From NCBI RefSeq assembly GCF_036373705.1, contig NC_089858.1, forward strand, positions 14,062,249-14,126,248: a stretch of 64,000 bases of DNA, in the 5' to 3' direction. Positions 5,607 through 62,043 of this stretch are shown in pieces. Source of the DNA: Amia ocellicauda. Taxonomy: Eukaryota; Chordata; Actinopteri; Amiiformes; Amiidae. A program made the position numbers and the translations under genes. Within the stretch, counting starts at the first letter, position 1. Each line of letters starts with the position of its first letter. The notes under the pieces were generated by a model. The model ran no database searches. It had not been told where the DNA came from and saw only the letters and a list, made by a program, of their open reading frames with translations.

Positions 5607-5916
5607 ATGGGGACCGCCGTGTCCAAGCGCAAACACCTGCGCAACGACGCGATCTCTTCGGTGGCGGCGAAAGTTAGGTGAGTTGGTCCTCGGTTCGCTG
5701 CTCTGGGTTCGGTTCCTGTGGGTTTTGGTTGTGTGCACTTTCTATTACAAATCTGTGTGTGCGCCTGCACCCGTGCCTACAGTACAGCACAGTACAGTAA
5801 CGCAGCCGGAGCCCCAGTCTTACAGGAATCGCAGCCCACCCCCCGGTCTCTGTGCACAGGACACAGACACCACTGGGACCCTGAGTTCCTCGGGCTGATG
5901 CATAGTATTATTATTA

Positions 5917-5963
<47 letters not shown>

Positions 5964-6062
5964 CGATTCCCCAGCTTTCTATGTGTATGCTCTGATATGA
6001 ATACATCGATTGAGATCCAATTTGTGCAACTCGCATATTATTAATATTGTGGCAGTATTATT

Positions 6063-6095
<33 letters not shown>

Positions 6096-7017
6096 TATAA
6101 TATTTTATTGTCATGATAATGTTTGCGGTGTGTGTCCCGTCACTTGTCTTGTCTTGACTTGTCCCTTGTTTGGAGCAGTCGGTGTTCATGCAGATGGATA
6201 TGTGTGCCTTTACCAGGGCAGTGTTGAACAATGTCACCCGGCGCGGCGCAGCGCAGGGTCTGACAATTTAATGCACCTCGATTCAGGCTGCTCTTTCTCA
6301 GTGTACAGATATATGTGTTTTGCAGCCATACAGGGTATTCACTTAGTAAATACCAAAGCACCCCAACTGCTACTTCTGCTATTGTTATTACTACTATCAG
6401 CAGCGCCAGTAATACTACCATCCTTACAACTACTATTACTTTACCTATTATGACCACTACTTCTACTACTAATATTACTACTGTTACTATACCTATTACC
6501 ACCACCACTACTGCTTCTATTACTATTTCTGCTAGACAGCTATGAGATTTGTATCTTCTTATTATTCATATTTTTTGCACTGTACACACCAAACACTTAG
6601 GGAGCAATAATAATAATAACAATCAAAATTGTTATTATTGTAGTAGTAGTCTGTGTCTGTGCAGGTGCTCCCAGGTGTGTTCTGTGGGTATTCAATGACA
6701 GACAGACAGGGGTGTGATGATGTCACTGCACTGAGAGGCAGTGTGACCCCTGGCATACGCTCACACAGGGGGCTAGGACGTACATCTGACCCTCCTCTAG
6801 CAACAAACGTGCTGTGGTGGTCATTTTTTTTGGGGGGGTTAGGCACACCTGGACAGATGTTCCAGGTGTCTTCCCCAGTGCAGACAGCTCCGGAACCCGG
6901 GTGCATATTCCGAATGGCCCCCGAAGTTCCGTCTCCCAGCATTCCCTGTTCTGGATTGTCATTGTCATCCTGTGGGCCACAGACTGCGGAGTGTAAAGTG
7001 ATTTATTAAACGGTGCT

Positions 7018-7067
<50 letters not shown>

Positions 7068-10000
7068 TGTAGTAGTTGTAGTAGCAGTAATGGTATTGGT
7101 AGTAGTACTAATGGAAGATTAAAAGGATCTCTCCACTCCACTCTCTCTCTCGCATTGCTTCCCCTTCACTGTCTCTGTGTGGTGCTGTGAATATTAAATA
7201 GCACTACTGTGTGAGTGTGTGTGCATGTTTGTATGTGTGTGTGTAGTGCATTTGTGTCGTGTACGTTTGTGTTGTGTGTGTGAGCGCATGTATGAGTGTT
7301 GTGTGCAAGTGAGTGTGTCAGAATGATACACAGCTTTAATTAACAGGATGATGTAGCAGATTCACAGTTTGGGGATCAGCAGGACGCAAAACTGAAATAA
7401 TCTGACCCCTAGTAATAAAAAATAATGAAAGTATAAAAAAGGTGGAATTCACTTTTGTTTTTAGTGCTGGTTTTTTGTGTGTATGACTCTGGGAGGGTAA
7501 TGTTGGTTGTAATGCTCTGTGTGTTGTGTGTGGTAACAAATTGGGCCGGCGGCAGTACATGTGTGTTGTGTGTGTGTGTGAGTGTCACAAAGAGTGATTG
7601 AAAGACCGATACACTGACTGACTGATCGACTGCAGATGAAGTGATACACTCATCGACTGACACACTGAGTCACTCACAGACTGACTGACACACTGACTGA
7701 CACACTGACAGACGGAAACACTGACTGACACATTGACTCACTGACTGACACACGGACACACTAACTGCCAGACACACTTAGTGACACACTGATGTGCTGA
7801 AGAGAGCAGAGGCTGTGTTGCCCCCTCTCTCTCTGTCAGAATTGCCCCCCTTTTTGCCAAAGCCCCCCCTTGCAGTCTCCTAATCAGTCAGTCCTCCTTC
7901 CTTCCCTCCCTCCCTCTCTCTCTGTCTGTCGGGTACGTGCACGCCGTCATTCACAAATATCCCGAGTGTGTTGGCCACAGCTCCAGAAGTGCAGCTGCAT
8001 GTACAAGATTGCGAACAGAGAGAACAAGGGAACGAGAGATACAGAGAAAGAAATACAAAGATATAGAGAAGGAGAACTCGGAAATACAGTGAAAGAGAGA
8101 GAGAGATACAGAGAGAGAGACGCTGTCCCCTGTGTCATTGGTGCGGTGTCCGAGATGACCCGGGCCGGAGTCTCAGCGCTGGTGTCCTGGGCTGGGATAG
8201 GGAGGTGAGCCGGGCTGGAAGGAGGGAGGGAGGAATGGAGAAAGGTAGAGAGTAGGAGAGAAGGAGTGAGTGAGATATGGAGATATGGGCAGAGATTGAG
8301 GAAGAAGAAAATCAAAATGAGGGAGAGAAGGAAAAGGGACAGATGGAGAGAGGGGAAAGAGATTGAGAGAAGGAGAGAGAGAGATTAGGAGAGAAGGAGA
8401 CCAAACATAAGAGAGAAATATGGAAGGAGTCATGGGGGAAGGAGAAGCTGAGAGAAGGAGAGAGAAATTTCTGGAAGTGTGCAGGGCTGGATGTCTGTGA
8501 TGTAACTCAGAGCACCGAGAACCTGCTGCTGCAAGGAACAAACAAAATGGCAAAGAACTGCAACAGTGACCCGAGCCAGCCTGCTGTGTGTGTGAGTTGA
8601 AGTGTGTGTGTGAGTTGTAGTGTGTGTGAGTTGCTGTATGTGTGTGTGTGAGATGCAATGTGTGTGTAGGTTGCTGTGTGTGAGTGTGTGTGTGAGCTGT
8701 TGTATATGTGAGCTGCTCAGTGCTGACCTTCTGAGCCAAGCTGTGTCCTTGATTGTGTAATAAGTCACAGTGTCTCATTCTTATGGGAGACTGGAGTGTG
8801 ACCAGCGCTATCTGCATAGTACAGCTACACAGCATTTTCACAGTACAGCTATACAGGGTTGACACAGTACAGCTACACAGAGTGAGGAAGAGATGCACTT
8901 GATATACACAGATCAGATGAAACAGTGGGCAGTTTCGGTCTAGTTCTCTGCCCCTCCTGCCTGCTCTCCGCGCTGCTGCAGCTCCTCCACTGCTGCTGCT
9001 GGTTTGTGCAACTTGAAGACTTTGTTTTGTCTTGTATTCTATATTTTTATGTTTTTTTTAATAGTTTAAATGTTTGTCTGTATGTATGTGTGTATATAAA
9101 TTGAATATTGAATTTGAGTCACAAGATGTAATAGTGGTAATAATAATAATATTTATAATATTGTCTGCCCATTGATGGGGGTGGCATAGACAGAGACAGT
9201 GTGTAGCTGTGCTCTACACCAGCTTGTATCTCTCTGTCTGCCTGTGTGCGTCCCCATGTGTCTCCCTGTGTCCCTGTGTGTCTCTGGTGTGTCCTGTCCT
9301 GCTCTGTACTGTCTCCTTTGTCTCACACTCTGCCAGCAAAGTGGTTCTGTTTGTGTTTGATCTGGACCCTGCAGGAGCAGCTAAGCAGGCCAGGGACACA
9401 GGTCAAGGATTCTGAGCCCAGCCCCAGCTCTCAGAATAAACCTGCTCTCCTTTTCAGAGCCAGGAGGCCCAGTGCTGCGTCAGAGCGGCCCTGTGCCAGG
9501 ACTGGGAACGAGTTCTGGAACGCTGTTTCCTCTGGGTTGCGGGGGGTGGGGGGGTGGACATGCAGGGATTCACGAACTGCTCACACACTCTCTCACATGC
9601 ACAGATACTCACACACACACTCACTCACACACAGTCTCTCAGAGAAACACGCTCACAGACTGGACTAGACTGGACTGGACTGTTGTAGAGTCACTGGCTG
9701 GGCTGTACCTGGACTGTACCAGCAGTGCTGTAGTGCAGTGTGTGTGTGCTCTGGGCTGTGTGTCCCTGACTTGGGAGTTGCCAGCTGTGTGATGTCACTG
9801 TTTATATTTTATTATTCTGGAGCAGCTGTCAGAATTGCAGGCTTTCCCCCTCTGCCTCCCACCCTGCCTTCCTCCCTCCCTCCATCCCTCTCTCTCTCTC
9901 ACATGGCCAGGAGCATTCATGATCTTTCAGGAATCTTTATTGTAACTCTTGTGGTCTAGATTGCTGGAGGGAGGGAGGGAAGGAGAAAGGAATGAGAGAG

Positions 10001-10730
10001 AGAGAGAAAGGGAGGAGATGGAGAGAGATGCTGAGGGAGTAGAGAGAGGGGGAGACAGGTGAGAGAGAGAAGTTATTTGATTAGGTGATTACAGGAGTAT
10101 TGGATTACCTCGTGAGTTCCAGGAAGATGGAAGTATGTGTGCGTCTATGTGAGGTTGTGTGTGTGTGTGTGTGTATGTGAAAGAGAGATGAGGAGAAGCA
10201 GTGGTGATAGGTAGTAAGAGAGACAGCAATATGAGATAATCTTACAGCTCACAGTCTGCACTCCTCTCTCTCTCACTGAGTGAAGGGCAGCACTTTGCCC
10301 ACAGTGACAGAGGAATGTGTAATTAGTGTGAGGTGATCACAGCGTCACGGGGAGACCACCACTTTGCTGGGGAGGGGGAAGGGTTCAGGGTGATACGCAC
10401 TTCACAGCTTTACTGTCTCCATGTGTCCAGTCAGGCTGTGTGTCCAGTCAGTGTCCAACCATACATTTCACACCTGTACGGTAACAGCTGTACCATCATA
10501 TCAGATGTGCAGCAGAGAGAGAGAGAGAGAAAGAGAGAGAGATAAATACACACGCACTCACACAAGCACACACAATCCTTCTCATGCACACACATACACA
10601 CACAGAGATACACATGCGCAAACACACCCTGCTGACACATGCACACACACACACACACACGCACCCGCAGTGACCTGGCAGTGAGATTACTGAGTAAATT
10701 TACCATGGCAAAATCGTTCTGCCACTCTCC

Positions 10731-10800
<70 letters not shown>

Positions 10801-10880
10801 TCTCTCTCTCTCTCTCTTTTCCTATAAGGCCCTGGCACTCAGCCAGGCTAATGGAAGGCAGGAATGAGAGAGTGAGCGAG

Positions 10881-10922
<42 letters not shown>

Positions 10923-11688
10923 AGAAGGCAGAAAAGATGACTGAAAAACATAGAAATACCAGAGACATTCCCTTCTCTCTGCTCGGTCAGGGTGGACTGG
11001 GCCAGGCTGACTTTTTGGTGTGTCAGTGTCTCCAGTCAGTGTCCAGTCCAGCCAGGCTGAGTGTCTGTGTGTCTTTCCGCAGAGCAGCCCGTGCGTTTGG
11101 GGAGTACCTGTCACACACTCACCCTGAGAACAGGAACGGATCAGGTGAGCTAGGCTCTGTCCCACTACCTCCCTGTCCCTCTGCCCCTTGGCCACTGTGC
11201 CCCTTTGCCCCTCTGCCCCTCTCCCTCCCTGCCCGTGTGACCCTCTGTCCCTTGGCCGCTCTGCCGCTTTGCCCTGCTGCCGTTCTGCCCCTCTGCCTAC
11301 TACTCTGTCTGTCTCTATTTCTCCCTGTCTGTCTCTCTCTTTCTCTCTCTGTCTGGATCTTTTACCGTCAATCTTTCTCACACTTACAGGCTCCCTCTGT
11401 CCCTGTCTCTGTCCCTGTCTCTGCCTCTGCCCCCGTCTCTACCTCCTTCCTTTCCTTCTCGTCTCTCGTCTTTCCCCTTCTCCCTTTTTATTTTTCCTCT
11501 ACCTCTTTCTGTTCCTACTTCTCTCTGCTTGTCTGTGTCTTAAAAAAACACACATTTCCAGCGACACTCAGCCAGGCTTCAGGGGGTAAGTCTGCATTGT
11601 TCCCCACTAGACACAGCAGAAATTATCAACCCCACAGCAACGCAGACCTCTCCTTGCCCTTCCCATCCCTTGCTCCTCACCCACCCAC

Positions 11689-11728
<40 letters not shown>

Positions 11729-14700
11729 CGTCTTTCTTTCTCTTCTTCCTAGCTCTCTTCACCCCCCCCTCTGTTTCTCTGCCTGTCTGCCTCTGTGACT
11801 CATCTGTTTATTCTCTCACCTAATCTCCAGAAGGGGAGATTGTATTAAGAGAGGAATGATTGTATTTGGACAACAACAACACCAGTAATAATAATAATAA
11901 AATGTTGTCTGCAGTAATAAAACATTCCTGTGTGTGAGAGTGTGTGAGAGTGAGAGTCTGAGAGTGAGAGAGTGAAAGTGTGAGAGAGTATGAGAGTGAG
12001 TGAGAGTGAGTGGCCTGGCTGTTCCCTCTGTGTTCACTCTGACAGGTGTTATTGTCTGGAGGTGTGCAGCCCTGTCTAACATTCCCCGCTCCCCCCCCGA
12101 CAGATCACCTGCTGTCTGAGACTTTCATTGGGCAGGACTCTGACTCCCCGGACAACAGCCATCTACGTGGCAACCCCCAGCAGCAACAGGCTCAGCCGCA
12201 CCCCTGCAGCTCCCCCCCACAGCAGCAGCATCCGCAGCCCCCCCACCCTAGCCACGAGCCCCCGCCAGCATCAGCAGCCCACCATCAGCCCCACCCGCCC
12301 CCACCCCCAACCTCCTGCTCGTCCTCCTGCGCGGGGCAGGGCAGGCGCGGCCTCTCGCTGGCCGCCGAGCAGCACGGTCTCCAAGGCCAGTCTGTGGGGG
12401 GGGGCGCCCTGCTGCTGGACTGCGAGGCTCAGCACCCCCGCGTGTACACGATCACGGGGGAGGGGGGCATGCTGGGGGGGGCGCAGGGAAGCGCGGAGAG
12501 CCTGGAGCTGGAGGTGCTGAAGGGGAGCCAGGAGCTGCCCCGCCCCCCGCCCCCTCATCACCACAGCACCGAGGGCCACAACCACCACCACAGCAACCAC
12601 CACCACAGCAACCACCACCACCACCACCACTACCACCACCACCACCCACAGCAGCATGGAAACCATGCTAACGGAGCTGCCGCCAACACCCCCACCGCCC
12701 CCTCCTCCAACCCCCATGCCCCCACTGTCACCCCCCATCCTATGCACAGCTCGAGCAGCGCACACAACATCCGCGGCTGGCTAGGGGGGGGCAACCGCTC
12801 GGCCTCCCGGGACTGTCCTCAGGACTGCGTTGCCTGCGCACCCCCCCAGGGCCCCCCCAGCTCCGCACAGCACTGCCTGGACACAGACAGCCGGCAGCGC
12901 AAGAAGCTGGAGAGGATGTACAGCATGGACCGGGTGTCTGGTGAGCCCAGCCTGTCCTCACCTGTCCTTATCTGTCCTCACCTGTCCTCACCTGTCCTCA
13001 CCTGTGCTCACCTGTGTGTCTGCCAACCACTGTCTCTCTCTTTAAAAGTCATGTTATCACACTCACTCTCACACACACATACACTGACACTCCCATCTGC
13101 ATCATGCATCTGTATCTGCGACTGTTTATCTCTCTCTGTCTATCTTGTTAGATCATTCTGTATCTTTCACAATTGTCTTGTAATAGACACACACCCTGAC
13201 TCCCCCTCTCCCCATCTCTCTTTCCCCTCTCTCTCTCCCTCCCTACCTCTCTCTCTCTCTCTGTAGAAGATGTGCCCAGCCACAGCTGGTTTCCCAAGGA
13301 GAACATGTTCAGCTTCCATACGGCCACCACCACCATGCAGGCGTGAGTACTGTCCCCTGATCCCTGACACACTAGTACCATGACAACACTGGCACATAGA
13401 GGGCACACAGAGAGTCTTGTCTGTCTGTCTCTCTTTCTTTCGGTGTAGTTTCTAATTAAGACCTGGGAGAGTAATTATCTTGTTCAGTGACATCAGCCAC
13501 CTCACTGCTGGCTCCAGTGGGGGGTGAGGGGGTGGGTTAGTGGCAGTAAGCAGGAAGCCTCAGCCAATAGGAAATAAAGGGAAATTAAACGGTGGGTCTA
13601 AGCAGCTTTCTATCTGACTGGATTTCTTTTTCTTTTCTCTTTGATGCTTCTCTCTGGTGCTGTCCAACTCCTTATTTCTCCCTCCTTCCCTCCCTCTCTC
13701 TGGGGACCTGTAGGATATCGTAAGTACCACCCTGTTATTGTCTTTCGTTTTGGTTTTGGTTTTGTGATTATCCCCCTGTCCCCGTCCCCCGTTACCCCCC
13801 GAAGTCAGAGTGTTTGGAGTTACAGAGGACAGCTGAACAGCAGCTCCAGTCGGTGGATGCAGACGCTTCACAGATTATACTGTACAAAAGTCAAAGTAGG
13901 TAAAAGTATGAAAGACATCTACACCAGCTGTGTGCTGTACAGTGTGCAGTGCTGTGTGCGGTACAGTATGTAGTGCTGTGTGCGGTACAGTGTGTAGTGC
14001 AGTGTGCAGTTGTATACAGTTCAGGGCAATGCAGTGAGGGGGAGCCTCCCCCGACTGTACACAGGCACTCACACACACATGCACACACACACTCTCTCTC
14101 TCTCTCTATATCTCTCACACACACACAGTCACTCACAAACACAAACACCTTTTATTGTAAAATGCACCCAGACCCCCCATCCTCGTTAGTGATGGACCCC
14201 CAGAGAGAGCAGCTGCCCGTGAGGACCTGCTCTGATGCTGAGGCCCCACACTGACTACCTGGCTCAAATGCGGGCACAACCCTAGCCTTTTGTTGACCCT
14301 ACTCCTGGTTCGACACTTACCCCATCTCTGGCTGTAGTGTTTGCCCCTTGCAATCTCCAACCTGCAATCCCTGACCTCATTAAGAAAGCCCGCCGAGTGC
14401 ACAGACCCAGTGTTGGCCCCACACTGGCATTGTGGCAAGGGCGGAGTGTAACGCTGTGGCGTCCCAGCAGGGCATTCCGGGGCTGTGCTGAGAGAAAGAG
14501 GAGGCGGAGGGAGCAGGAGCCGGCCGAGCACACACACAGGTACCTGCCTGCCCTGCCTCGTGTGTGTCCGCACTGTCCCCTTCATTTACTCACACACTCG
14601 CACTTACACACTCACACACACACATACATGCACACACACACTATTATACTTACTATTATTATCAGTCTGCCCTTCCTTCTCTTCCCCTCCTGCACTGAGG

Positions 14701-15298
14701 TAACCCGGGGATACAATCTCCCTGCATTCCAGATGTTTGATCTTGGATGCAAGGTTGCCATGGTTACGGGATGCAGGAAGTCCAGCTGTGCTGATCTCAA
14801 ACAGAGAGAAAGGGAGGTAGCGAGAGAGAGAGGTGGATAAATGAATGAGGAGGGATGGAGAGAGAGAGGAAGGAAAAACAAGGAGGCAGAAATACACAGA
14901 AAAATATAGATGATAGAGAGAGGGAGGTGGGGGAAATACAGACAAGAGAGGAATAGAAAATGTGATGGAGAGAGGAATGTTTGTCTGCTCTTGACAGAGA
15001 GAGAGAAAGAGTGAAGGAGAGAGAAGAAATGCAAAAAAACTGAATGAATCCCCTAGAAAAACAGCATAAGGACACAACAGCAATGACAATACGGGGGCCT
15101 GAAAGACACAGAAAACACCTACAGAGAGGAGGAGCTGTCCCTGGTGCTGATCTGAGCACACAGTGACAGTGTCTGTCTGGGCCTCCCCCCACACACACTC
15201 ACACACACACACACTCACACACACACTCACACACACACACACTCACACACACAGACACTCACACACACACTCACGCACACACACACTCACACACACAG

Positions 15299-15330
<32 letters not shown>

Positions 15331-15381
15331 AGACACTCACACACACACTCACGCACACACACACGCATGCACACACGTACG

Positions 15382-15418
<37 letters not shown>

Positions 15419-15463
15419 TCACACACACACTCACGCACACACACACGCATGCACACACGTACG

Positions 15464-15504
<41 letters not shown>

Positions 15505-15741
15505 ATCTACACACACTCACACACACACACACACACTCACACACACAGACACTCACACACACACTCACGCACACACACACGCACGCGCACACGTATGCTC
15601 ACACACACACACACACACACACACTCATCTAAACACACTCACAGGCACACACACTCACACACACACACACACACACACTCATCTAAACACACTCACAGGC
15701 ACACACACACACTCACACACACACACACTCATCTAAACACA

Positions 15742-15780
<39 letters not shown>

Positions 15781-15965
15781 ATCTAAACACACTCACAGGC
15801 ACACACACACACTCACACACACACACACACTCACAAACACACACACACTCATCTAAACACACTCACACACACACACACTCACACACACACACACACTCAT
15901 CTAAACACACTCACACACACACACACACACACACACGTACGCTCACACACTCACACACACACACA

Positions 15966-16000
<35 letters not shown>

Positions 16001-19000
16001 ATCTAAACACACTCACAAGCACACACACACTGACACACACTCACACGTGATTATCACACACAAGCGCACACAGACACACAGCTGCAGTGACACACAGCCA
16101 CTCTGCTGATGTTACAGCTTTGAGAAGTAACCCAGCTCAGTATTGTCAATAGATTTGGTATCTGTTTGCATGAGTTTGGCACCAAAAATAAAAATACTGT
16201 GGGACAAATATGAGGCTGTGACACTTAAATCTCCTTCAAGACTGTAGAAATGTACTGTAAAATACAGTGTAGTCTACAGTGTAGTATGGAGTGATGTACC
16301 ATGGTAAACGTGGTATAGTTTTCCACACTCCTGATTGGCCATCAAACATATTAGTCCATAAGACGACACCATGTGCTGCTTGAAGAAAGGTATTCTGAAT
16401 TTTCCATCATTGGTTTCAATGGAGCTTTTGATTGATGTTTGATTTAAATTAAAAATAATAATTATAATAATAAAGATCTCACATGCAGACTAATAATAAT
16501 CTCTTTCCCCTGTTCTGCAGTGAGATTGAGGTAACTGTCCCGATACCTAGAGATCCCATCTGACTGACTGTAACTTCAAACACGCTGTGCTCCCATTGTC
16601 ACCACTAGGGGGCACTGTCACCAATCTGCCATGGAGGGTTATGAGGGGAGATCCACGAACTAACAAACTTTGTCTGTTTCTCTCTGTCTCCCTTCCTCTC
16701 CTCTCTCACCTATCTTTTACCCTCTCCCACACACCCTTCTCCCTTTCTATCTCTATGTCTCGCTCTCTCTCTCTCTCGCTTTATCTCTCCCTCTACAGAA
16801 ACTTCCGCAAGCATCTTCGGATGGTGGGAAGCCGGCGGATGAGGGTGCAAAGTGAGTCAGAGTGTCAGTGTGCAGCAGTGTCACAGTGTCAGAAAAGTGT
16901 GTTTTATTGCATGTCAGTGTGTGTGTTTTGTGCACGACATGGTGTTGGTGCAAGGTTTTTGGGTTTCACTTGCACGGTGTGTGCTAATTGTGTTGGTACA
17001 CAATATGTGTGTAATACTGTTTCGGATTACAATGTGTATGTGTAGTACACAATTGTAGTGGCAGTCAGTGCACATTGAGTCTGGTTGCAGTGTGTGTGTA
17101 GAAGTAGCCATGTCTGTGTGATGCATATGTGGGTTTTACAGTCATAGAGTGTATCTATCAATGTGTGTGTCAGTGTGGTGCCAGTGTGTGTGTGTGTGTC
17201 AGTGTGGTGCAGTGTATGTGTGTGTGCCAGTGCATTGCAATGCGTGCAATTTTGTGTGTGCCCGTGCAGTGCAGTTGGTGCGATTGTGTGTGTGTCAGTG
17301 TGGTGCAGTGTGTGTGACCATCTCTACCCCCCTGCCCCCATCACCCCCCCCAGCGTTTGCTGACCGTCGGGCGAAGAGTTTCAGCCGGTCCTGGAGTGAC
17401 CCCACCCCCATCAAGAATGACTCTCTCCACGACTCCCGCGACAGTGAGTCCCCCACACTCACGCAATGGCCAGTCTCTGTCCCTGTCACTGTCCGTCTGT
17501 CTGTTTGTCCATCTGTGTGCTTGTGGGATTGTGTACCTGTAACTAGGACTGACTGTGTTGGTCTGTAATGTTTGTGTACCTGTATGTGTGTGTTTATTCC
17601 CTGTAACTATGAGTGTATTTCTCTGACTGTGTGTATAACTGCTTGCCAGTGTGTCTGTTTCTCTATCTGTGCATGTGTCTGCCTGTCTGCCTGTCTGTCT
17701 GTGCATGTGTCTGTGTTTGTATCTGTCTGCCTGCCTGAACTGAATTCCTTCCAGGCTCTAAATGTGTCTATTTGATTTTATATTAGTGTGTGTTGTGTGT
17801 ATTATATGTATTGTGTACTGTGTGTTGTGTGTTTTCTGAAACCCACTGTCCCTTTCTCACTTTGTGTATTATGTGAGTATTGTGTGTGTGCGTGTGTGTG
17901 TTTCATGATGTGGTTGACAGTATGCGTGTGTGTGCGTGTGAGTATGTATGTCTGCAGCAACTGTGATTGTGTGAATGTTGATGTATGGGCCGACCAGTGT
18001 ATCTGTGTGTGTTCAGTGTGTGACTGTGTGTGTGTGTCTGTGTCTGTGTCTGTTATTGTTCAGTATATGTGTGTGTGTCTCTCTGAGTTCTCAGCTCTCC
18101 TCAGGTCTGTTTGTGGTTCGGGTCTCCATGCTCTGTATAACAGCTCCGCTCCATCTCTCCCTCCCTCTCCTCTCCTCCCCTCTCCCTCTTCTTCTTACCT
18201 CCCTCTTCCATCCTCCTTCCCTCCACCTCCCCACATCCCATCCTCCCTTTCTCAGGTGGAGATGTGGCGGTGTCCTGCGGTGGGGTGGAGGAGGGCATCG
18301 AGGATGTGGCCTGGGAGGAGGAGCGAGAGGAGGAAAGGCTAGCCTGCCAGGGGGACGACTTCCAGCCCCCCAAAGTCATGGTGAGGGGGTCCGCAGGGTG
18401 GCCTGTGCTTGACATGGGTCCACACTTTGTGCCAAAAGAAGGCAACACAACCCACCACAAAACAACACAACAGCAAAACACCACAGATACAGAACACAAC
18501 AGCAATCAAAATGCCACCATAAAGAACACACAACACAATACAGAACACAAAACCAAACAATACAGTAAAATAACACCATACAGAACAAACAACACCACAC
18601 AATACAGCAAAACAACTGAGCACATCACATGGAACATAGCAGACACAACGCACAATGCACAACACAGCACACACAGCACAGGTTGCACAACACACACCCT
18701 CTGTGCAGCATTGTTATTTGTCATAATGGTCTGTGGAGCCGAACCATGTGGAATTGCTGTAACAGTATATTCATGTTTAAATGATTATTTTATGTCTCTC
18801 TCCACCCTCCTCTGCCTCTCTCAGCTCATCTCCTCCAAGGTGCCGAAGGCAGAGTACGTGCCGACCATCATCAGGGCAGACGATCCCTCCATCATCCCCA
18901 TCCTCTACGTAAGGGAGATGCACTTTTGTTTTCTTTTTCATTATTTGCAATTTTTGCAGTTTTTTTTTCTGTTGGAAGGTATTGTTAACATTCTCTCTCT

Positions 19001-19647
19001 CTTGTCTGCTCCTTCCCCCCCTCTTTCCTGCTCCCTCTCTCTCTCCCTCTTTCTCTTCCCCTCCCTCTCTCTTTCTTCCCCTCCCTTTCTGCTTCCCTCT
19101 CAATCTCTATGTCTCTCTCACTCCCCCTCCCTCTCTCTCTATCCGTCGCGCTCTCTCTGCAGGACCACGAACATGCTACCTTCGATGACATTCTCGGTAC
19201 GTGGTGTCCTGCCTTCTGGCATGTTTTGCAAGTGTCTTAGCTAGCTATGTGTGTTGCATCATGTGCAGTCTGTGTGACGTGTGTGCCATGTGCTTCCCGT
19301 GTTGTTAGCGTGTAGTGTGTCTGAGGTCCATCTCTCTTTTTGCAGAGGAGATAGAGAAGAAGCTCAACGCCTATCGCAAAGGCTGCAAGATCTGGAAGAT
19401 GCTGATCTTCTGTCAGGTGGGAGAGAGAGAGTAAAGGAGGGAGGGAGGGGAAGAGAGAGCGGTACACATATAAGGCAGCAGTGGAGTTTGGGGGGACACT
19501 GTTGCTGTATCCTTGAGCAAGGTACTGTAACTAGACTGCTCAAGTAAAAACCAAGGTGTATGAATGGGTAATTATATGTAAGAATAATGTGATATTTTGT
19601 AACAATTGTAAATTGCCCAGGATAATAGAGTCTGCTAAGAATATAAT

Positions 19648-19680
<33 letters not shown>

Positions 19681-20941
19681 TGTACAGTGAGATTATGAGC
19701 TGAGCTATAGAATGTGTCTCTCTCTGTCAGGGGGGCCCCGGGCACCTGTACCTGCTCAAGAACAAGGTGGCCACCTTCGCCAAGGTGGAGAAGGAGGAGG
19801 ACATGATACTGTGAGTCAATCAGTCAATCAATGTCTGTGTGTCTTGTGTCTGTGTGTGTGTCTGCATGTGTTCATCTGTGTGTCTGTGTGTGTGTGTTAA
19901 TCTGCAGGCAATGAGCTGAATCATGACAGTTTATGACTCTGGCTGAGACAGAACCCATAAACCCCACATATCTGCCATTTATTTCACCTCCTGTGGTGTC
20001 ACAGTCAGCAGGAAACAACTGTTCTCTCTCTTTCTCTCCCTCTCTCTCCCTCTCTTTCTCCACCCCCCTCTTTCTCCCTGTTCTGTAGGTTCTGGAGACG
20101 TCTGAGCAGACTGATGACCAGGCTCGACCCAGAGCCCACTGTGGTCCATGTAATGGGCTGCTATGTACTTGGCAACCCCAACGGAGAGAAGGTACCAAAC
20201 AGCACTGACAGACTGACACAGCACCCAGACAGCAGACACAGAGCCACACTGACAGCTGGCAGAGGGGTGAGGGATTAGCAAAGACACTAACAGTCTGTCT
20301 GTCTGTCTGTCTGTCTTTCTGTACAGCTTTTCAAGAACCTGAAGAACCTGATGAAGCCTCAGTCCATCACCTTCGAGTCGCCGCTGGAGCTGTCAGCACA
20401 GGGTAAGCCTGACCTCCTGACCCCACAGCACACACTGTATACCAACCTCACTGTACACACTATACTATACACACTGCACCCATACACAGACACACACTTA
20501 CACAGACACACACACACACAATGACAGCGTGAATGCTGACTTCCCAGGAGTGTAATCGACACAGTACTAATTATCCCCCAATTAAAACTTCGTTATCTTT
20601 GCCTGCGCTCCCAGAGAGCAGCACCCTCCCTCCTTGCTCTCTTTCTCTCAGTTCAATTCAGCTCATTTCAGTTCAGTGTGCTTTATTGGCCTGCCGTATA
20701 TAATGTATTGCCAAAGCATCTCTCTCTCCCTCTCTCTCCCTCTCTCTACCTCTCTCTCTCTTTCACCCTCTCTCTCTTTCTCTCTCTTTTCAAATTCAGC
20801 ATTATTGTCATGCCATCTTTCTTTGGTATTGCCAAAGCATGTACAATACAGGCCTTACATAAAAACAACAATAAAATATATATTTATAGATAATTAAGTA
20901 AATAATAAAATATATAATTTAAACCATTCAAATAATTAAAC

Positions 20942-20979
<38 letters not shown>

Positions 20980-21690
20980 GATAATATAGATGAACAATAG
21001 ATCAGTAATAGATCAAGCAATGAATATGATGAAGTAAAGAAGATTCAATAATATTTATATATGAAATAAACAAATTATTATTAAAAAAGGGAAATCCAGA
21101 AGAAGCAGAAAGGTTAATGTCTTATTGATGTCTACCTTTCTCATCTCTCTATCTACGAAAACATCGACTCTGACCACTGCCCCCCCCTCTCTGCAGCCCT
21201 GCTATTTTACCCAGAAGTACTAATTTTATATTGAATTATACGCTCCCTTCCCTTTTGCAGCGGCAGGGCCCATGTGGCTGCAGGCTGTCCACACAGTCCA
21301 CACTGTCCACACACTGTCCCAACACTGTCCACAATGTCCACAATGTCCACACATTGCCCAAGCACTGTCCACTATGTCCACACACTGTCCCCACTGTCCA
21401 CACACTGTCCAACCTGTCCACACTGTCCACACTCTCTCTCTTTCCTCTCTCTGTCACTCTCTCTCTCTCTCTGAGTACACTGCTCATTTACACTGCCTTT
21501 ACTGACTGCTGAATTTTCCCCCTAATCCTCCATCCCTCCCTCCCTCCCTCCCTCTCTCCCTCTCCCTCTCTCTCTCTCACTCTCACACACAGGTAAGGAG
21601 ATGATTGAGACCTATTTTGACTTCCGCCTGTACCGGCTGTGGAAGGCACGTCAGCACTCCAAACTTCTGGACTACGACGACATCCTATGA
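5607..21690 (+). CDS. nsmf: NSMF/Jacob, NMDA receptor synaptonuclear signalling and neuronal migration factor (spliced)
   Basis: Coding exons: 5607-5677, 11083-11144, 12104-12940, 13267-13342, microexon 13714-13719, 14471-14539, 16799-16851, 17354-17443, 18256-18380, 18825-18908, 19163-19196, 19346-19416, 19731-19810, 20089-20191, 20327-20402, 21593-21690. All have GT/AG borders and the phases join to 644 codons plus stop. The start is MGTAVSKRK: Gly2 and Ser6 fit N-myristoylation, known for Jacob. Recognisable blocks are [35 protein letters not shown], the basic ERKRRRRE stretch at the known nuclear-import site, [11 protein letters not shown], the conserved C-terminal domain from [13 protein letters not shown] through [20 protein letters not shown], and the end [19 protein letters not shown]. 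In mammals the protein carries NMDA-receptor signals to the nucleus and affects GnRH-neuron migration. It is longer than human (530 aa), mostly because exon 3 carries Pro-, Gln- and His-rich expansions. The tail-to-tail neighbour is mamdc4. Confidence 0.97.
5906..5963. repeat. (ATT)n microsatellite, nsmf intron 1
   Basis: A near-pure ATT trinucleotide run. A complementary AAT run follows at about 6064-6096, so the two could fold against each other. Confidence 0.95.
6064..6096. repeat. (AAT)n microsatellite, nsmf intron 1
   Basis: A pure AAT run about 100 bases after the ATT run at 5906-5963. Confidence 0.95.
7019..7067. repeat. (ATT)n microsatellite, nsmf intron 1
   Basis: About sixteen ATT units in the 5.4-kb first intron. 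The rest of this intron (5678-11082) holds further GT, CT and GACT-type short repeats (for example 7580-7790) but no recognised gene. Confidence 0.95.
10735..10920. repeat. (CT)n and (GA)n microsatellite pair, nsmf intron 1
   Basis: A CT run (about 10735-10820) is followed about 60 bases later by a GA run (about 10882-10920). The two are complementary and could form a hairpin just upstream of exon 2. Confidence 0.9.
13714..13719 (+). CDS. nsmf: 6-nt in-frame microexon of nsmf
   Basis: The hexamer GATATC is bracketed by a pyrimidine-rich tract ending in TAG and by a strong donor, GTAAGT. The flanking exons join as ...CAG GC | G GCA TTC, so including the hexamer adds codons for Ile-Ser (Gln-Ala-Ile-Ser-Ala-Phe-Arg-Gly) without changing frame. 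Human NSMF has Ile-Ser at the same place in its longer isoform (recalled). Microexons this short are usually regulated and neuronal. Confidence 0.85.
15186..16044. repeat. Long compound CA satellite, nsmf intron 5
   Basis: About 860 bases made of CA dinucleotides broken into higher-order units carrying ACTCATCTAAACACACTCAC, CACTCACGCACAC and CACGTACGCTCACACAC. The long His-Thr open frame across it is a product of the repeat, not a gene. Confidence 0.97.
19578..19682. repeat. SINE/LINE tail with (AAT)n, nsmf intron 11
   Basis: The segment TTGTAAATTGCCCAGGATAA followed by TAGAGTCTGCTAAG and an AAT run matches the conserved 3' tail found on many fish SINEs and their partner LINEs. Related tails occur at about 36943-37005 and 42050-42095 in this window. 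Confidence 0.7.
20640..20980. repeat. LINE-tail-like repeat plus (AAT)n, nsmf intron 14
   Basis: Two copies of a TTGCCAAAGCAT-type phrase (about 20709 and 20828) flank CT-rich DNA, with an AT-rich end and an AAT run at about 20943-20978. This resembles the 3' end of L2-type elements seen widely in fish. The rest of intron 14 has no recognised feature except the TGTCCACAC minisatellite. Confidence 0.55.
21280..21440. repeat. TGTCCACAC-type minisatellite, nsmf intron 14
   Basis: About fifteen imperfect copies of a 9-12 base unit (CACTGTCCACA and variants) shortly before the last nsmf exon. Cys/His/Pro-rich open frames here are artefacts. Confidence 0.9.
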
Positions 21691-32212: not shown

Positions 32213-32974
32213 ATTCTCATTCACATTCCAGAAGTCATTCATCATCGTCGTCTGTGCGGCAGACCAGTACAGTACAATACAGAGCAGTACAGAACAGCAC
32301 AGTGCAGTCAGATACAACACGGAGCAGTACAGTACAGTCAAACAGTCGACTGGAGCAGTAGAGTGCAGTCAGGAGCAGCTGCACTGGGAGCAGAGAGTCA
32401 GTCAGAACAGCTGAAAGACAAAGAAATTATCTCTGACCCTAAATCAAAATCACAAATCACACTGTCCGCCTGGATCTGGACAATCATCGTCGGGGCTGAG
32501 TTGCAGCAAAAGGATTGGGAAGTTTGAGCAGTGTAGCACACCCTCACCACCAGGGGCACTTCTCACTGCACTGCGCACAAGCTCGCTCTTCTCTCTCCTC
32601 CTCCTTCCCTCACAAACATTCCCTCTCTTTCTCAGCCTCTGTCTCTTTCTCTTCCACTCTCCCTCTCCCCCTCTCCCTCCCTGGGTCTGTCAGTGTCATA
32701 TCCAAAGGCTCAGCCCAAGGTGTGGGTGAGTGCATGCGGCTGCAGTAATTTCATCCCTCCTCTCTCTCTGCTTTCCTCTCTCTGTCTGAGTGGCTTCATG
32801 CTGTGGATGTGTGCCTCTGCATGTGTGTGCGCGTGTGTGTGTGTGTCTGTGTATGTGTGTGTGTCTTGGCCCTGAGGGCAGGCACAGGTGACACAAGCAG
32901 TTCTCCTGCTGTGCTGTCACCCAGTGGACAGGGGGCGCCACCGGGGCGCTACAGAACGAGAGTGGAGTCCGGCC

Positions 32975-33138
32975 TCACGACTCCACCATCCACACTGCCT
33001 GCCGGTCCTGGAGAGAGAGAGAGAAGGGGGGAGGAGGAGGATTAGGGAGGAAGAGAGATGGACAGTGTCAATCAATACGTTTTTTCTTTCCATTATTTCA
33101 TACAGAATTCATACTGTCTGCCTGTCTCTGTGTACAAG

Positions 33139-33176
<38 letters not shown>

Positions 33177-33591
33177 CACAACTCTCTCTCTGTCTCACCT
33201 GGTCGCTGGTAGAGTAGGTGGTGTTCTCAATGCTGTCCTGAGGGTCGTCCTGGGCCATCTGCAACCGGGGGATCACTACCCTTTCCTGGGGGGAGAGGGG
33301 AGAGAGAGAATAGTATAATTAAAGTCTATCATCCTGTTTTTTGTGTTTGTTTGTATTTCAGTCTCACTGTCACTGTCACTCACTCAATCACTCACACCCT
33401 CCTCAGTCTCACCGTGTCGCTGGTGTTGTAGGTGGTGTTGTCGAACCCGCCGAAGCTCTCGGTGCTGCTCAGCGGCCCTCGCCCGCGCAGACGGAAGTAA
33501 AACACCAGCAGGGCAGCCAGCGTTGCCAGGAGCACCAGCAACACCAGGACTGACACCACTATCTCTGCAGTATTGTCACTGCGGGTACTGT
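32975..33591 (-). other. mamdc4: mamdc4 exons 27-29: membrane span and cytosolic tail
   Basis: Exons 33591-33413, 33285-33199 and 33007-32975. A hydrophobic segment of about 23 residues ([20 protein letters not shown]) is followed by a basic stop-transfer RLRGRG and a short tail. The tail carries NTTYNTSDT and, in the next exon, NTTYSTSDQ. The last exon encodes only ten residues and the stop. Confidence 0.92.
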
Positions 33592-36500
33592 CTGCAGGGC
33601 AGGGGAGAGAACAGAAAACTGGTGTCATGATCCAGCAAGAGACATGGACCTGAGCAGAAGACCCGTCTCTCAGCCCAGTGTGGCACAGAGAGCAGCTCAG
33701 ACTGCTCACCCCAGTTAAAAGAGGAGACCCTCACCTGTGGCTTCAGAGGAACAGATCTGTCTGTAAATGTTAAATGCATGATTTCTGTATTTATTGTTCC
33801 CATTGCCCTGTTTCTGAGCACTGGGCCTGTCTGCCGATTAGTGATGCCAATAAAGATTTTTTGAATTTGAATTGAATTTAAACCGAGAGAGGTAGACAGG
33901 GAGACAGGCAGGCAGGAGAAGGTGGATGGCCGAGTGTCTGACCTGAGGGCAGCGGGTCCATCTGTTGTCCGGCACAGTTGACCCCGGGGATGAAGAGGAC
34001 GTCATCAAGAGCCAGCGCCCCATTGAACCCCTTGCGCCCCTCCAGCACCATCTGACACAATTAACACACAATTAACTAATGAACTAGCCAAAGGCAAGTA
34101 ACTCAGTTTTTGGCTCAGGGGTGAAGTGGTGGGGTGGGGGGTTATGAGGACGGGCATATAGGTATTTGTCCCCTGCATGAGCTTACTCTGCCCCCCCCAA
34201 ACATACACCTATGCCCTTTACTGTGCCCATTCCCTGTACCCATGTCTGACTGTGTTGAAATTGGATTGTAAACTGCTTTGAGATTATTACATAATTTATT
34301 ATTATTACTACTACTATTACTGTTATTGTTATTACTATTTTATTATTGCAATTATTGTTATTATAACTTTGTATTATATTTCTGGAATTTCTCTGACCTG
34401 GTACTCCACTGTGCTGACGATGTCCAGCTCGTAGCGTGTCCACAGTGGACTGCCCCCACCCCTCTGCTCCCACAGCTGGCGAGTCCCCTGTTCAGACAGC
34501 AGCAGAACCCGCAGCACCGCGCCATCTACAACCGCACACACCATCAAAGACACGCCATCACAGACATGTACACGCAAAATTGTCCAAACAAATGGATAGT
34601 TATTCATTTTAAAAATTGATCACAGGAGAGAGAAGAGGGAGCAGGGGGAGAGGAGAGAGGAGAGAGGGGAGGGAGCAGGGGGTAGTCTCACCGTGGACAG
34701 CTCTGTGTACCCAGAAGCTCAGGCAGGTTCCGGTCGTCGGGGGAAAGTGGGGGCTGAGCAGCCAAGCAGTTTGACCAGCCGTCGCCCGCTGAGAACTCGG
34801 CAGGAACAGGAAGTGACCTGAGGGACAGACACACAGAAAGATATAGAGTCTCAATAAGACAGGGAGGGGCGAAAACAGGACGGGGATATTCAGACACAGA
34901 GGGACCAAGTGAGTTTGTAAAGAGATAGAGAATGACAGTCAGAGAGACAGACAGATGGGGACAGTTTGACACAGGGACAGACAGAATGGGAGACAGCCAA
35001 AAGAACAAGCAATGGGCCGGGTGGTCAGGTCAGGTCAAGTTCAGCTTTACCTCGGGCATTCAGCAGGCTGTGGTCATGGGGGGGGGCGGGGTAGTAGCTC
35101 TGACTGTCCGCACTTGTCAATGTCCAGTCCAGCTGGTCCAGCACAGGGTCCTGAGTGTTACTCCAGCTGCATTGACCGCTTTCAAAATCACATACAGAGG
35201 CTGGAGACAGAGAGAGAGAGAGAGCAAGAGAGAAAGAGTGAGTTAGTAACTGCTCACTATCAGCAGGGATGAATAAAGCAAGATAATAACTATCTCGCTG
35301 ACACTCTCCCTCTCTGTCCTCCCCAGTCCTTGTCCCTTGCTTCCCCAGTGCTCACCTGGTCCAGGGCAGGTATGGGGGATGTAGGTGATGTCATCAAGGG
35401 CGATGTATGCTTGGACTCCCCCCGCCCCCTCCGCTTCAAACACCAGCTGGAGCACACAGACCCAAGTAACTATTATTATTATCATCATCATCATCATGAT
35501 CATCATCATCATCACTAATGCTACTTCTGTACAGAAGCGTCTCTAATATAATGAACCATTAGCAGCCATATCAAAAACAGTATTATTGGTACAATGCTTC
35601 TACTATTATTCCTGCTGCTGCAAATACACAGCTAAAAGAAACATTTTATTTTCCTGCAGCTCTTTGCTTCCCCCTGGTGGACAAGAGGCTGTATTTTTGC
35701 ATTTTGCATTGCGTTTATACACTCACCTAAAGGATTATTAGGAACACCATACTAATACTGTGTTTGACCCCCTTTCGCCTTCAGAACTGCCTTAATTCTA
35801 CGTGGCATTGATTCAACAAGGTGCTGAAAGCATTCTTTAGAAATGTTGGCCCGTATTGATAGGATAGCATCTTGCAGTTGATGGAGATTTGTGGGATGCA
35901 CATCCAGGGCACGAAGCTCCCGTTCCACCACATCCCAAAGATGCTCTATTGGGTTGAGATCTGGTGACTGTGGGGGCCAGTTTAGTACAGTGAACTCATT
36001 GTCATGTTCAAGAAACCAATTTGAAATGATTCGACCTTTGTGACATGGTGCATTATCCTGCTGGAAGTAGCCATCAGAGGATGGGTACATGGTGGTCATA
36101 AAGGGATGGACATGGTCAGAAACAATGCTCAGGTAGGCCGTGGCATTTAAACGATGCCCAATTGGCACTAAGGGGCCTAAAGTGTGCCAAGAAAACATCC
36201 CCCACACCATTACACCACCACCACCAGCCTGCACAGTGGTAACAAGGCATGATGGATCCATGTTCTCATTCTGTTTACGCCAAATTCTGACTCTACCATC
36301 TGAATGTCTCAACAGAAATCGAGACTCATCAGACCAGGCAACATTTTTCCAGTCTTCAACTGTCCAATTTTGGTGAGCTTGTGCAAATTGTAGCCTCTTT
36401 TTCCTATTTGTAGTGGAGATGAGTGGTACCCGGTGGGGTCTTCTGCTGTTGTAGCCCATCCGCCTCAAGGTTGTACGTGTTGTGGCTTCACAAATGCTTT

Positions 36501-39345
36501 GCTGCATACCTCGGTTGTAACGAGTGGTTATTTCAGTCAAAGTTGCTCTTCTATCAGCTTGAATCAGTCGGCCCATTCTCCTCTGACCTCTAGCATCAAC
36601 AAGGCATTTTCGCCCACAGGACTGCCGCATACTGGATGTTTTTCCCTTTTCACACCATTCTTTGTAAACCCTAGAAATGGTTGTGCGTGAAAATCCCAGT
36701 AACTGAGCAGATTGTGAAATACTCAGACCGGCCCGTCTGGCACCAACAACCATGCCACGCTCAAAATTGCTTAAATCACCTTTCTTTCCCATTCAGACAT
36801 TCAGTTTGGAGTTCAGGAGATTGTCTTGACCAGTACCACACCCCTAAATGCATTGAAGCAACTGCCATGTGATTGGTTGGTTAGATAATTGCATTAATGA
36901 GAAATTGAACAGGTGTTCCTAATAATCCTTTAGGTGAGTGTATTTTGTCGCTCTGGATAAGGACGTCTGCCAATAAATAAGTAATAATAATAATAATAAT
37001 TACAGCTAGTGCACAGTAAAGCACAGTGTTCTGCTTCACAGACTGTGCATCTGAACCACAATCCCAGTTCCATCACACAGCAGGGTCATCCAGTCCAAGT
37101 GTTACTGGGAACCGTGGGCTGGGCAGACTGGGCAGACGGGGCCTACCTGCCAATCTCTGGTGGTGCTGATGTTGACATTGCCGTGACGCCAGGCATTACC
37201 CTGGGAGACGTTGTCTGCAAACACCTGGACACGCCCCCCCCCCACCTCCTGCAGGAACACCCGCAGAGAGCCTGCATCACAACAACAACACAACAAAACA
37301 ATATTACTGTCTCTGTGTAACAGTGCATCATAGTGTGTCAGTGTGCATGTATAACGATGTATATCGTCAGTGTGTATCAGTATCTCAGTGTCTAACAGTG
37401 TGAAACTGTCAGTGTGCCTCACCTGGCTTGTCTCCTCCCTTGTGGTACCAAAACTGCACACACTCCGGCCAGAGGGGGGCGCTCCTCTCCTCAGACCGCA
37501 GGACACTTACACTGCCGCTGGGCAGACTGGTGTCAGCTATCATATAGTACCCTGAGAGAGAGAGAGGGAGAAACTGTCAGACAAGAGGAAAGACAAGGGG
37601 AGAAACCCAAGGAGAGAGAGAGAGAGACAGAGAAATTGCCAGTACAGTATTGGGAAGGAAGGAGACCACAAGAGAAATGGAGAGAGAGGCTGAAAGAGAG
37701 AGAGAGAAAGAGAGAGAGACACACAGACACAGACAAGCAGCGAGAGAGACACACAGAGACACACAGACAGGCTCAGAGCGAGAGTCAGGCCCTGTCAGTA
37801 CCGCGGTCAGTGCCCAGGCTGTGGTCACTTGGGGGGCCGGGCGTCACTTCCCCGGTGGCCCAGTTCTGTCTGACCCAACGCTCGTAGCCAGAGGAGGAGA
37901 AGCCGCAGTCCCAACCCTCGAAGGAGCAGCTGGTCTGGGTCGGGCAGGACTCTGTCACCATCACGTCATCCACAGCAACATGGCCATCAAAACCATCACG
38001 CACTGCCTCAAACACCAGCTGTGGGAGAGGGGGGGAGGTGAGGAGAGAGAGGGTGAGAGTAAGACAGAGGACAAAGTGAGGGTAACAGAAGGATACAGAG
38101 AGACACAGGGACACAGAGGGAAACACAGAGACACTGAGGGGCAGAGGGACATAGAGCTTTGGCAGGGGGGTACCTGGAAGTTTGGGGGGATGGGGGTGAG
38201 GAGGCAGTTGCCATGGTGCCAGGTGTTTCCGTGGGAGCCGCTGCGGGTCCAAAGGAGCAGCTCTTGGCCATCATTCACAGAACGTAACTTCACATTGAGA
38301 GATCCTGAGAGGGGAGAGAGGGAGAACAGGAGGAGGAGAGAATGAGGGAGATAGCATGTGTGACAGAAGCAGAGGTTAAAAATAAATAAATAAATAAATA
38401 AAAATACCTGGGATGTGGAACACTGGGGAAGGAGGAGTGTGACAGGGAGGGGGTTAATTGTCATTCCCTGTCTGCTTATGGACTGCAGGTGGTTGGGGTG
38501 ATTGAGCAATTAAGGTCAATCAACCCCACCAACCTGACACATATAAATAGGGGTGGGGCAGAGGACAAAGAAAGAGTGTTGGGCCGGTAGCAAGGAAGCT
38601 GTTTTGAGCTGACGGTTTGGTTTGTTTTAACTGAGTAGTCAGTGGACCAGCCGGTGTTTTGTGTTGTAGTTATTTAGTATAAAACTTTGGTTAGCCCACG
38701 TGCCACATTTTTTTGGTTATTAGATCTGTAAATTGTGAAGTGTAAGATATTAGGAGCTGGGATTGTTGGGACCCGCCCTGAAGAGTGGGCGCAGTAAAGG
38801 TTGGGATCTGTCAGGTCACAGTAGGAGACCTGAGAAGAAAATAGTACTGTGAAGAAGAAAACAAGTAAATAAACTTTTCCCAACTAATCCCTGAACCCGT
38901 GGAGTACAGCCTGTTTTTTTCTGCCTCCCTTCGCACAAACGTAGAGGTAACAGTACCGGGAGAGTCCGGGCTTCGCACATGATATAGACAGCAGAGAAAG
39001 AGAGAGGGGAAAGCAGGGGGACGTGCAGCAGCTTCTCACTGAGACACTGATGCTGACACTGTAACACACTCTCTCCCTCACCCCGCCTCCCGCCTCACAT
39101 CTCTATTCATCCCTCCATCCCTGCCCCCTTCCTCCCTTCATGATCTCCACGCTCCCTCCCTTCTCCCTATCTCTACCCTCTGCATCCCTCACTCACTCAC
39201 CAGTCTGTGGCCCGTACAGTTGGTACCAGAAGGAGAGGCACAGGGAGGTGCTGGGGGTAGGCTGGGGGTAGGAGAGCAGCCTGCCAGTCAGCCCCCGCAG
39301 GGAGGGGGACCACAGGGGCACGGACACACTCACTCCTAGAGAGAG

Positions 39346-39385
<40 letters not shown>

Positions 39386-40112
39386 AGAAAACTTTATTGA
39401 ACCAAGGACATGAAATTAAAAACCACAAAGACAACTCCACAATTCCACAGAGAAAAGAAAAAAGAAAAAAATGTCCAGTGACCAACACAGAGTGTGGAGG
39501 GACTTCACGTTCCTAGTAAGTGTATGAGATAGAGAGAGAGAGGGAGGGAGGAGTGTACCTGGACCGATGGTATGGTCAGACCCGTTTTCAAGGAACCAGT
39601 CGAAGCTGTCAGTCTGGTCCTGGTACCACCCACACAGACCAGCCTCGAAATTACAGGTCAGCTCTGTACACAGAACAACACTGACACACGGCTACACAAC
39701 ACAGACACCAACACTACAGAACACATAACACTGCTACACAAACACAAATGACCATTACACAATACAGAGCACTGACATCCTGCTACATTAGACCACTATA
39801 CAAAACAGCTACACAAAGAGTTTAAAAGAGTGGCAAAAATAATTGGAATTGGAATTCGGAGTGGGTCTGAATTAGGGAAATGGAACTGAAAAAGTGGAAT
39901 TGACCCCAACCCTGCTCACATCACTGACTCACAACACGCAACACTGCAACACTGCTCACTTTACTGACACAACGCTGCTAAACAACACTGTCACACACAG
40001 TACCTCTGGAATTGTCTGGCTCAGATATGTTACAGGTCAGGAACTCAAACTTATTAATTGCTATCAAGTGAGTTTCAGCCAGGAAGTCAGGCACATGACC
40101 TCTGACCTCCAC

Positions 40113-40148
<36 letters not shown>

Positions 40149-61900: not shown

Positions 61901-61991
61901 ATTGGTTGGTTAGATAATTGCATTAATGAGAAATTGAACAGGTGTTCCTAATAATCCTTTAGGTGAGTGTAAGTGAACAATGTATTTCCAC

Positions 61992-62043
<52 letters not shown>

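Follow-up and report, generated by a model that had tools for sequence, protein, structure and literature searches.

The window analysed here, a stretch of 64,000 nucleotides of the Amia ocellicauda assembly GCF_036373705.1 (NC_089858.1, positions 14,062,249 to 14,126,248), carries on its plus strand the complete coding region of nsmf, read from a start ATG to a stop TGA (Table 1). Exon boundaries were assigned by visual inspection, after which a script joined the exons; they are conceptual boundaries drawn from the DNA alone. All 15 introns are of the GT-AG type (15/15) and the joined exons form a single open frame. The conceptual protein is longer than rodent Jacob, with 644 against 532 amino acids. 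Exon 3 spans 837 nt (12104-12940) and encodes long His-, Pro- and Gln-rich runs.

Table 1. Coordinates of the nsmf coding region and of its features around exon 5 (numbering of the window).
Feature	Position	Strand	Remarks
nsmf, whole coding region	5607..21690	+	16 exons, 644 aa
nsmf exon 4	13267..13342	+	ends TTTMQA (GC, split codon); donor GGC/GTGAGT has the lowest score of 15 donors
Intron upstream of exon 5, 371 nt	13343..13713	+	CU-rich tract, CTCTCT and TTCTCT repeats
nsmf exon 5, putative 6-nt microexon GATATC	13714..13719	+	phase 2/2; would add Ile350-Ser351 of the conceptual protein
Intron downstream of exon 5, 751 nt	13720..14470	+	donor GTAAGT
nsmf exon 6, 69 nt, ending in a split Arg codon	14471..14539	+	basic cluster RKRRRR; Phe matching rat F241
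nsmf exon 7	16799..16851	+	completes the bipartite import signal (second half)

Several other genes are indicated on the minus strand of the window. An ecto-nucleoside triphosphate diphosphohydrolase gene is suggested by candidate exons at 56045-63951, with both of the two peptides searched (2/2) matching Pfam GDA1_CD39 (E-values of 1.3e-10 and 2.8e-08). Exon candidates at 32921-44312 encode MAM domains with E-values of 1.2e-05 and 0.032, both under the curated cut-off, together with a class A domain of the LDL-receptor type (E 2.2e-10); one further MAM-like peptide had no Pfam match. The combination is reminiscent of MAMDC4. An exon candidate at 47309-47436 matches Pfam Ocnus (Janus/Ocnus family, E 9.5e-14) and is reminiscent of PHPT1. 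The set formed by NSMF with ENTPD, MAM/LDLa and Ocnus-type genes resembles the gene content and order of human 9q34.3. A direct duplication is found at 57867-59769, its two copies lying about 970 bp apart and aligning in three pieces with 98, 99 and 96% identity; one peptide from it, searched in Pfam, had no match.

Domain and structure databases give little help in naming the nsmf product. A Pfam search with the whole fish protein yielded nothing above cut-off (best EGF_Sp38_C, 17.8 bits against 24), and its 37 weak matches among PDB sequences (best E 0.018, none named NSMF) fall largely on the His-rich stretch. Since neither search gave an NSMF match, the identity of the gene rests on its structure, on published residues of the rat protein and on its general likeness to mammalian NSMF. 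The rodent NSMF gene has 16 exons, of which exon 5 is 6 nt long and exon 6 is 69 nt long (PMC8662305). Residues 237-247 of rat Jacob are printed as aisvfRGyaeR and its import signal is placed at 247-266 (PMC2253627). The fish protein is identical to rat 237-247 at 9 of 11 positions, without gaps and with an offset of 112, and to rat 260-269 at 8 of 10 positions, again without gaps and at the spacing found for the first segment. Rat 262-269, RNFRKHLR, is fully identical, the first Arg being split by the exon 6/7 junction, and the basic cluster RKRRRR is kept. In place of rat I260-Q261 the fish has Thr-His, encoded by the 3' end of exon 6; in rat Jacob the Ile-Gln so replaced belongs to the second, incomplete IQ motif (region 14512-14539 in the fish). 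A single scan of viral contigs for relatives gave 11 pattern matches, none of which was confirmed.

Between exons 4 and 6 lies the hexamer GATATC, preceded by CTCTCTCTGGGGACCTGTAG, which ends in TGTAG, and followed by GTAAGT. Exon 4 ends in phase 2 (ATG CAG GC), exon 6 starts in the matching phase, and both introns flanking the hexamer are phase 2. The reading frame is intact with or without the six bases, giving MQAISAFRGC upon inclusion and MQAAFRGC upon skipping; the Ala codon is unchanged by skipping because the hexamer and exon 6 both start with G. The first-pass annotation of this DNA had proposed a 6-nt in-frame microexon of nsmf at this position, adding Ile-Ser beside the basic nuclear-import stretch. 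Coordinates, flanks and phase agree with the sequence, and the translated exon 4-5-6 junction has the two residues where they were expected. Given a ray-finned source, an age of more than 400 million years for an exon shared with mammals follows from the split between ray-finned and lobe-finned vertebrates.

The hexamer resembles exon 5 of mammalian NSMF (Jacob/NELF) in its length of 6 nt, as in rodents, in its place between exons 4 and 6, in phase, in the two residues encoded just ahead of the caldendrin-anchoring Phe (MQA-IS-AFRG, rat aisvfRG), in the FRG that follows and in the basic import signal carried by the next exon, which is 69 nt long and part of a 16-exon gene. It differs in the residues around FRG, with Ala for Val and Cys for Tyr in the fish. 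A 2021 review describes exon 5 as coding for Ile-Ser in mammals and as present throughout Euteleostomi (PMC8662305), which supports the retention between fish and mammals suggested in the first-pass annotation. NSMF exon 5 has thus been reported before, for mammals as for other bony vertebrates, and is not new. The first-pass annotation had assigned the two residues to a difference between human isoforms, whereas the literature consulted describes them for mammals as a group and their alternative splicing for mouse. The six-base exon is very probably present in nsmf of Amia ocellicauda, as judged from the DNA. We favour, with a probability of roughly 0.8, the reading of GATATC as the fish counterpart of NSMF exon 5, an exon known to be alternative, which would act by tightening a caldendrin clamp on the import signal.

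The elements of this mechanism come from rodents. Rat caldendrin competes with importin-alpha for the Jacob import signal in a Ca2+-dependent manner, and F241 is essential, as substitution F241E abolishes caldendrin binding (PMC2253627). Ile-Ser enhances caldendrin binding according to the review, which cites a thesis (Dieterich 2003) for this point (PMC8662305). In the fish protein the included form has Ile at -3 and Ser at -2 relative to the anchoring Phe, positions that are occupied by Gln and Ala in the skipped form. Inclusion would place Ile-Ser before the Phe-Arg-Gly of the short helix bound by caldendrin, next to the basic import signal, and would strengthen the Ca2+-dependent binding; Ile probably improves docking to caldendrin, in line with the cited enhancement. 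Bound caldendrin would mask the import signal from importin-alpha, so that NSMF would be kept out of the nucleus for as long as local Ca2+ stays high, and skipping of exon 5 would weaken the clamp. By analogy with rat and mouse, the fish exon is likely spliced and likely acts in the same way. The caldendrin mechanism may not be universal in fish because, in the review's account of zebrafish, the caldendrin motif varies substantially and the import signal is lacking (PMC8662305). Amia nsmf is a further, independent fish sequence, and one that retains all three elements: hexamer, Phe anchor and basic import cluster.

Exon 5 could also be near-constitutive in Amia ocellicauda, a conserved constitutive exon and not a switch, which we consider rather unlikely. 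Splice sites were scored with weight matrices built from the other 14 donors and 14 acceptors of nsmf, which are noisy at 14 sites each. On this scale the exon 5 donor GTAAGT is strong, ranking fourth to fifth of 15 in a tie with exon 8, which would suit constitutive use, as would the absence of a close UGC motif and the minor, non-neuronal character of the skipped form in mouse (PMC7815907, PMC8662305). Regulated splicing is better suited by the weak, G-interrupted acceptor of exon 5 (11th of 15), by the exon 4 donor, the lowest of 15, and by the acceptor of exon 6, below which only one of the 15 scores; moreover, exon 5 is alternative in mouse (PMC7815907). In P7 mouse brain the isoform with the 69-nt exon and without the 6-nt exon is reported to be preferred in prefrontal cortex and to be absent from neuronal cells (PMC7815907). 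The review has the skipped isoform seen only in glial cells, at odds with the absence of the protein in adult rat glia (PMC8662305).

The candidate regulators of such an alternative exon are the factors of neural microexons, whose length range is 3-27 nt (PMC7935315). According to a review of neural splicing, the pyrimidine tracts of SRRM4 targets are weak, contain G and carry UGC motifs as well as PTBP sites (PMC10551640). Exon 5 falls within the 3-27 nt, frame-keeping definition of SRRM3/4-regulated microexons, and further resembles them in lying in a neuronal gene behind a weak, G-interrupted, CU-rich acceptor tract. AG is absent for 107 nt before the acceptor, and the interruption is a GGGGA at -12 to -8; of the flanks claimed earlier, the TAG and the GTAAGT stand, and the pyrimidine tract running up to the AG does not. 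Unlike SRRM3/SRRM4 microexons, the fish exon has no UGC within 50 nt of its acceptor. SRRM4-type UGC motifs just upstream, to which the first-pass annotation had pointed, are not distinctive: the nearest end 53 and 66 nt from the acceptor, and 8 of the 14 other nsmf introns also place a UGC no more than 100 nt from their exon, the distance being only 2 to 18 nt in the case of exons 8, 10, 11 and 12. An SRRM4 signature is therefore not claimed for exon 5. The Rbfox motif, as TGCATG or GCATG, is absent from the 751-nt downstream intron. No report of SRRM3/4 control of NSMF exon 5 was found in the open-licence papers searched, and a term search for nsmf gave no match in a zebrafish microexon paper (PMC12626424).

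The locus also suggests, by its sequence, a new idea of what skipping exon 5 might do. Skipping joins the terminal MQA of exon 4 to xFRGxAERK and would thereby create an IQ motif, MQxxxRGxxxR, a possible site for calmodulin or a related light chain at little or no Ca2+. Inclusion would move MQ by two residues, break the register and leave the site for caldendrin alone at high Ca2+, the microexon then mainly setting which Ca2+ sensor binds. Such a role is unlikely in our judgement. In Pfam the fish skipped form matches IQ (PF00612) at 13.0 bits (E 0.09) and the included form has no IQ match, with the proviso that HMMER filters can drop weak matches, so that missing IQ matches are not exact zeros. 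Among seven register variants of the fish segment (the skip; linkers I, AA and ISI; one or two residues deleted; MQ changed to MA in the skip), IQ is reported for the natural skip alone. The same holds for three presumed mammalian segments (with IS, skipped, with I), where the skipped one matches at 17.3 bits (E 0.0039) and the other two give no IQ. The pattern [FILVM]Q...[RK]G...[RK] occurs once in the skipped fish protein and is absent from the included one. It is created by 4 of 643 two-residue deletions, all at the exon 5 site, and, among the five frame-keeping single-exon skips, by that of exon 5 alone; shuffled proteins contain it in 132 of 20000 cases. The mammalian skipped segment also aligns with the repeats AATKVQAAFRGYQARKE of radial spoke protein 23 in the PDB, with an E-value of only 0.96. 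The skipped isoform is thus similar to the IQ motifs of calmodulin-binding proteins in its predicted MQxxxRGxxxRK, where the consensus Q, R-G and R stand at the set spacing. Neurogranin and neuromodulin are IQ-motif proteins of this kind.

Several observations weigh against this role. Both Pfam scores of MQxxxRGxxxR alone, 13.0 bits in the fish and 17.3 bits in the presumed mammalian segment, are under the gathering cut-off of 20.3 bits, and the first position is Met. The fish skipped peptide has no match among PDB sequences, nor have the fish included and the mammalian included peptides. The hypothesis is post hoc, having arisen from inspection of the sequence, and the residues preceding Ala237 in mammals are presumed ones, a text search for them having found nothing. 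With a longer mammalian segment, also presumed, the included form scores 20.9 bits for IQ through the second motif only, and the skipped form 29.7 bits in two stretches. This second motif passes the Pfam cut-off, yet calmodulin was not bound by the described rat Jacob (237-247 with Ile-Ser) at any Ca2+ tested (PMC2253627), so that an IQ match does not ensure calmodulin binding. The same assay also bears in favour of the register effect, as the protein used presumably carried Ile-Ser, to judge from the printed residues. No report on skipped NSMF and calmodulin was found in the open-licence papers searched, where an absence carries little weight.

In its full form, the idea would make the six bases an IQ breaker: cells that skip exon 5 would produce NSMF whose import signal lies under a restored IQ motif, accessible to calmodulin even at low Ca2+, and neurons, by including the exon, would produce a helix blind to calmodulin and read by caldendrin only at high Ca2+. 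This complete scenario, built from the sequence, seems to us quite doubtful. Were it true, NSMF, a messenger from synapse to nucleus, would have its Ca2+ sensor exchanged by a conserved microexon of two residues. A role in register would, if real, explain why the described Jacob ignores calmodulin despite its IQ-like sequence and why two residues were held for so long.

The preferred assignment of GATATC to exon 5 can be set against what chance would provide. The plus strand of the window has 276 AG-N6-GT strings, five with a donor as good as that of the hexamer and six with an acceptor as good. Candidates with both scores at least equal to those of the hexamer number one on the plus strand, the hexamer itself, and none on the minus strand. 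In first-order Markov resamples such candidates average 0.11 per window (100 resamples, one strand), and for the 1,128 nt of the exon 4-exon 6 stretch 4 of 2000 resamples contain one. When that stretch was tried for frame-keeping exons of nine lengths (3 to 27 nt), a candidate was found at 6 nt only. As the cut-off was set post hoc at the hexamer's own scores, the chance calculation is only moderately strong support by itself; the stronger evidence is the occurrence of the two expected residues at the expected place, in a 16-exon gene with a 69-nt exon 6 as in rodents. That the hexamer is an intronic look-alike of an exon, unspliced in Amia ocellicauda, is highly improbable: a string this good can arise by chance at the resampled rate and its acceptor is not among the best of the gene, but it matches the known exon 5 in length, place, phase and Ile-Ser, between the expected exons 4 and 6.

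The acceptor of exon 6 is a NAGNAG (gtcccagcag, 14459-14473). Use of its first AG would add one Arg, giving MQAISRAFRG or MQARAFRG, and would also break the IQ register.
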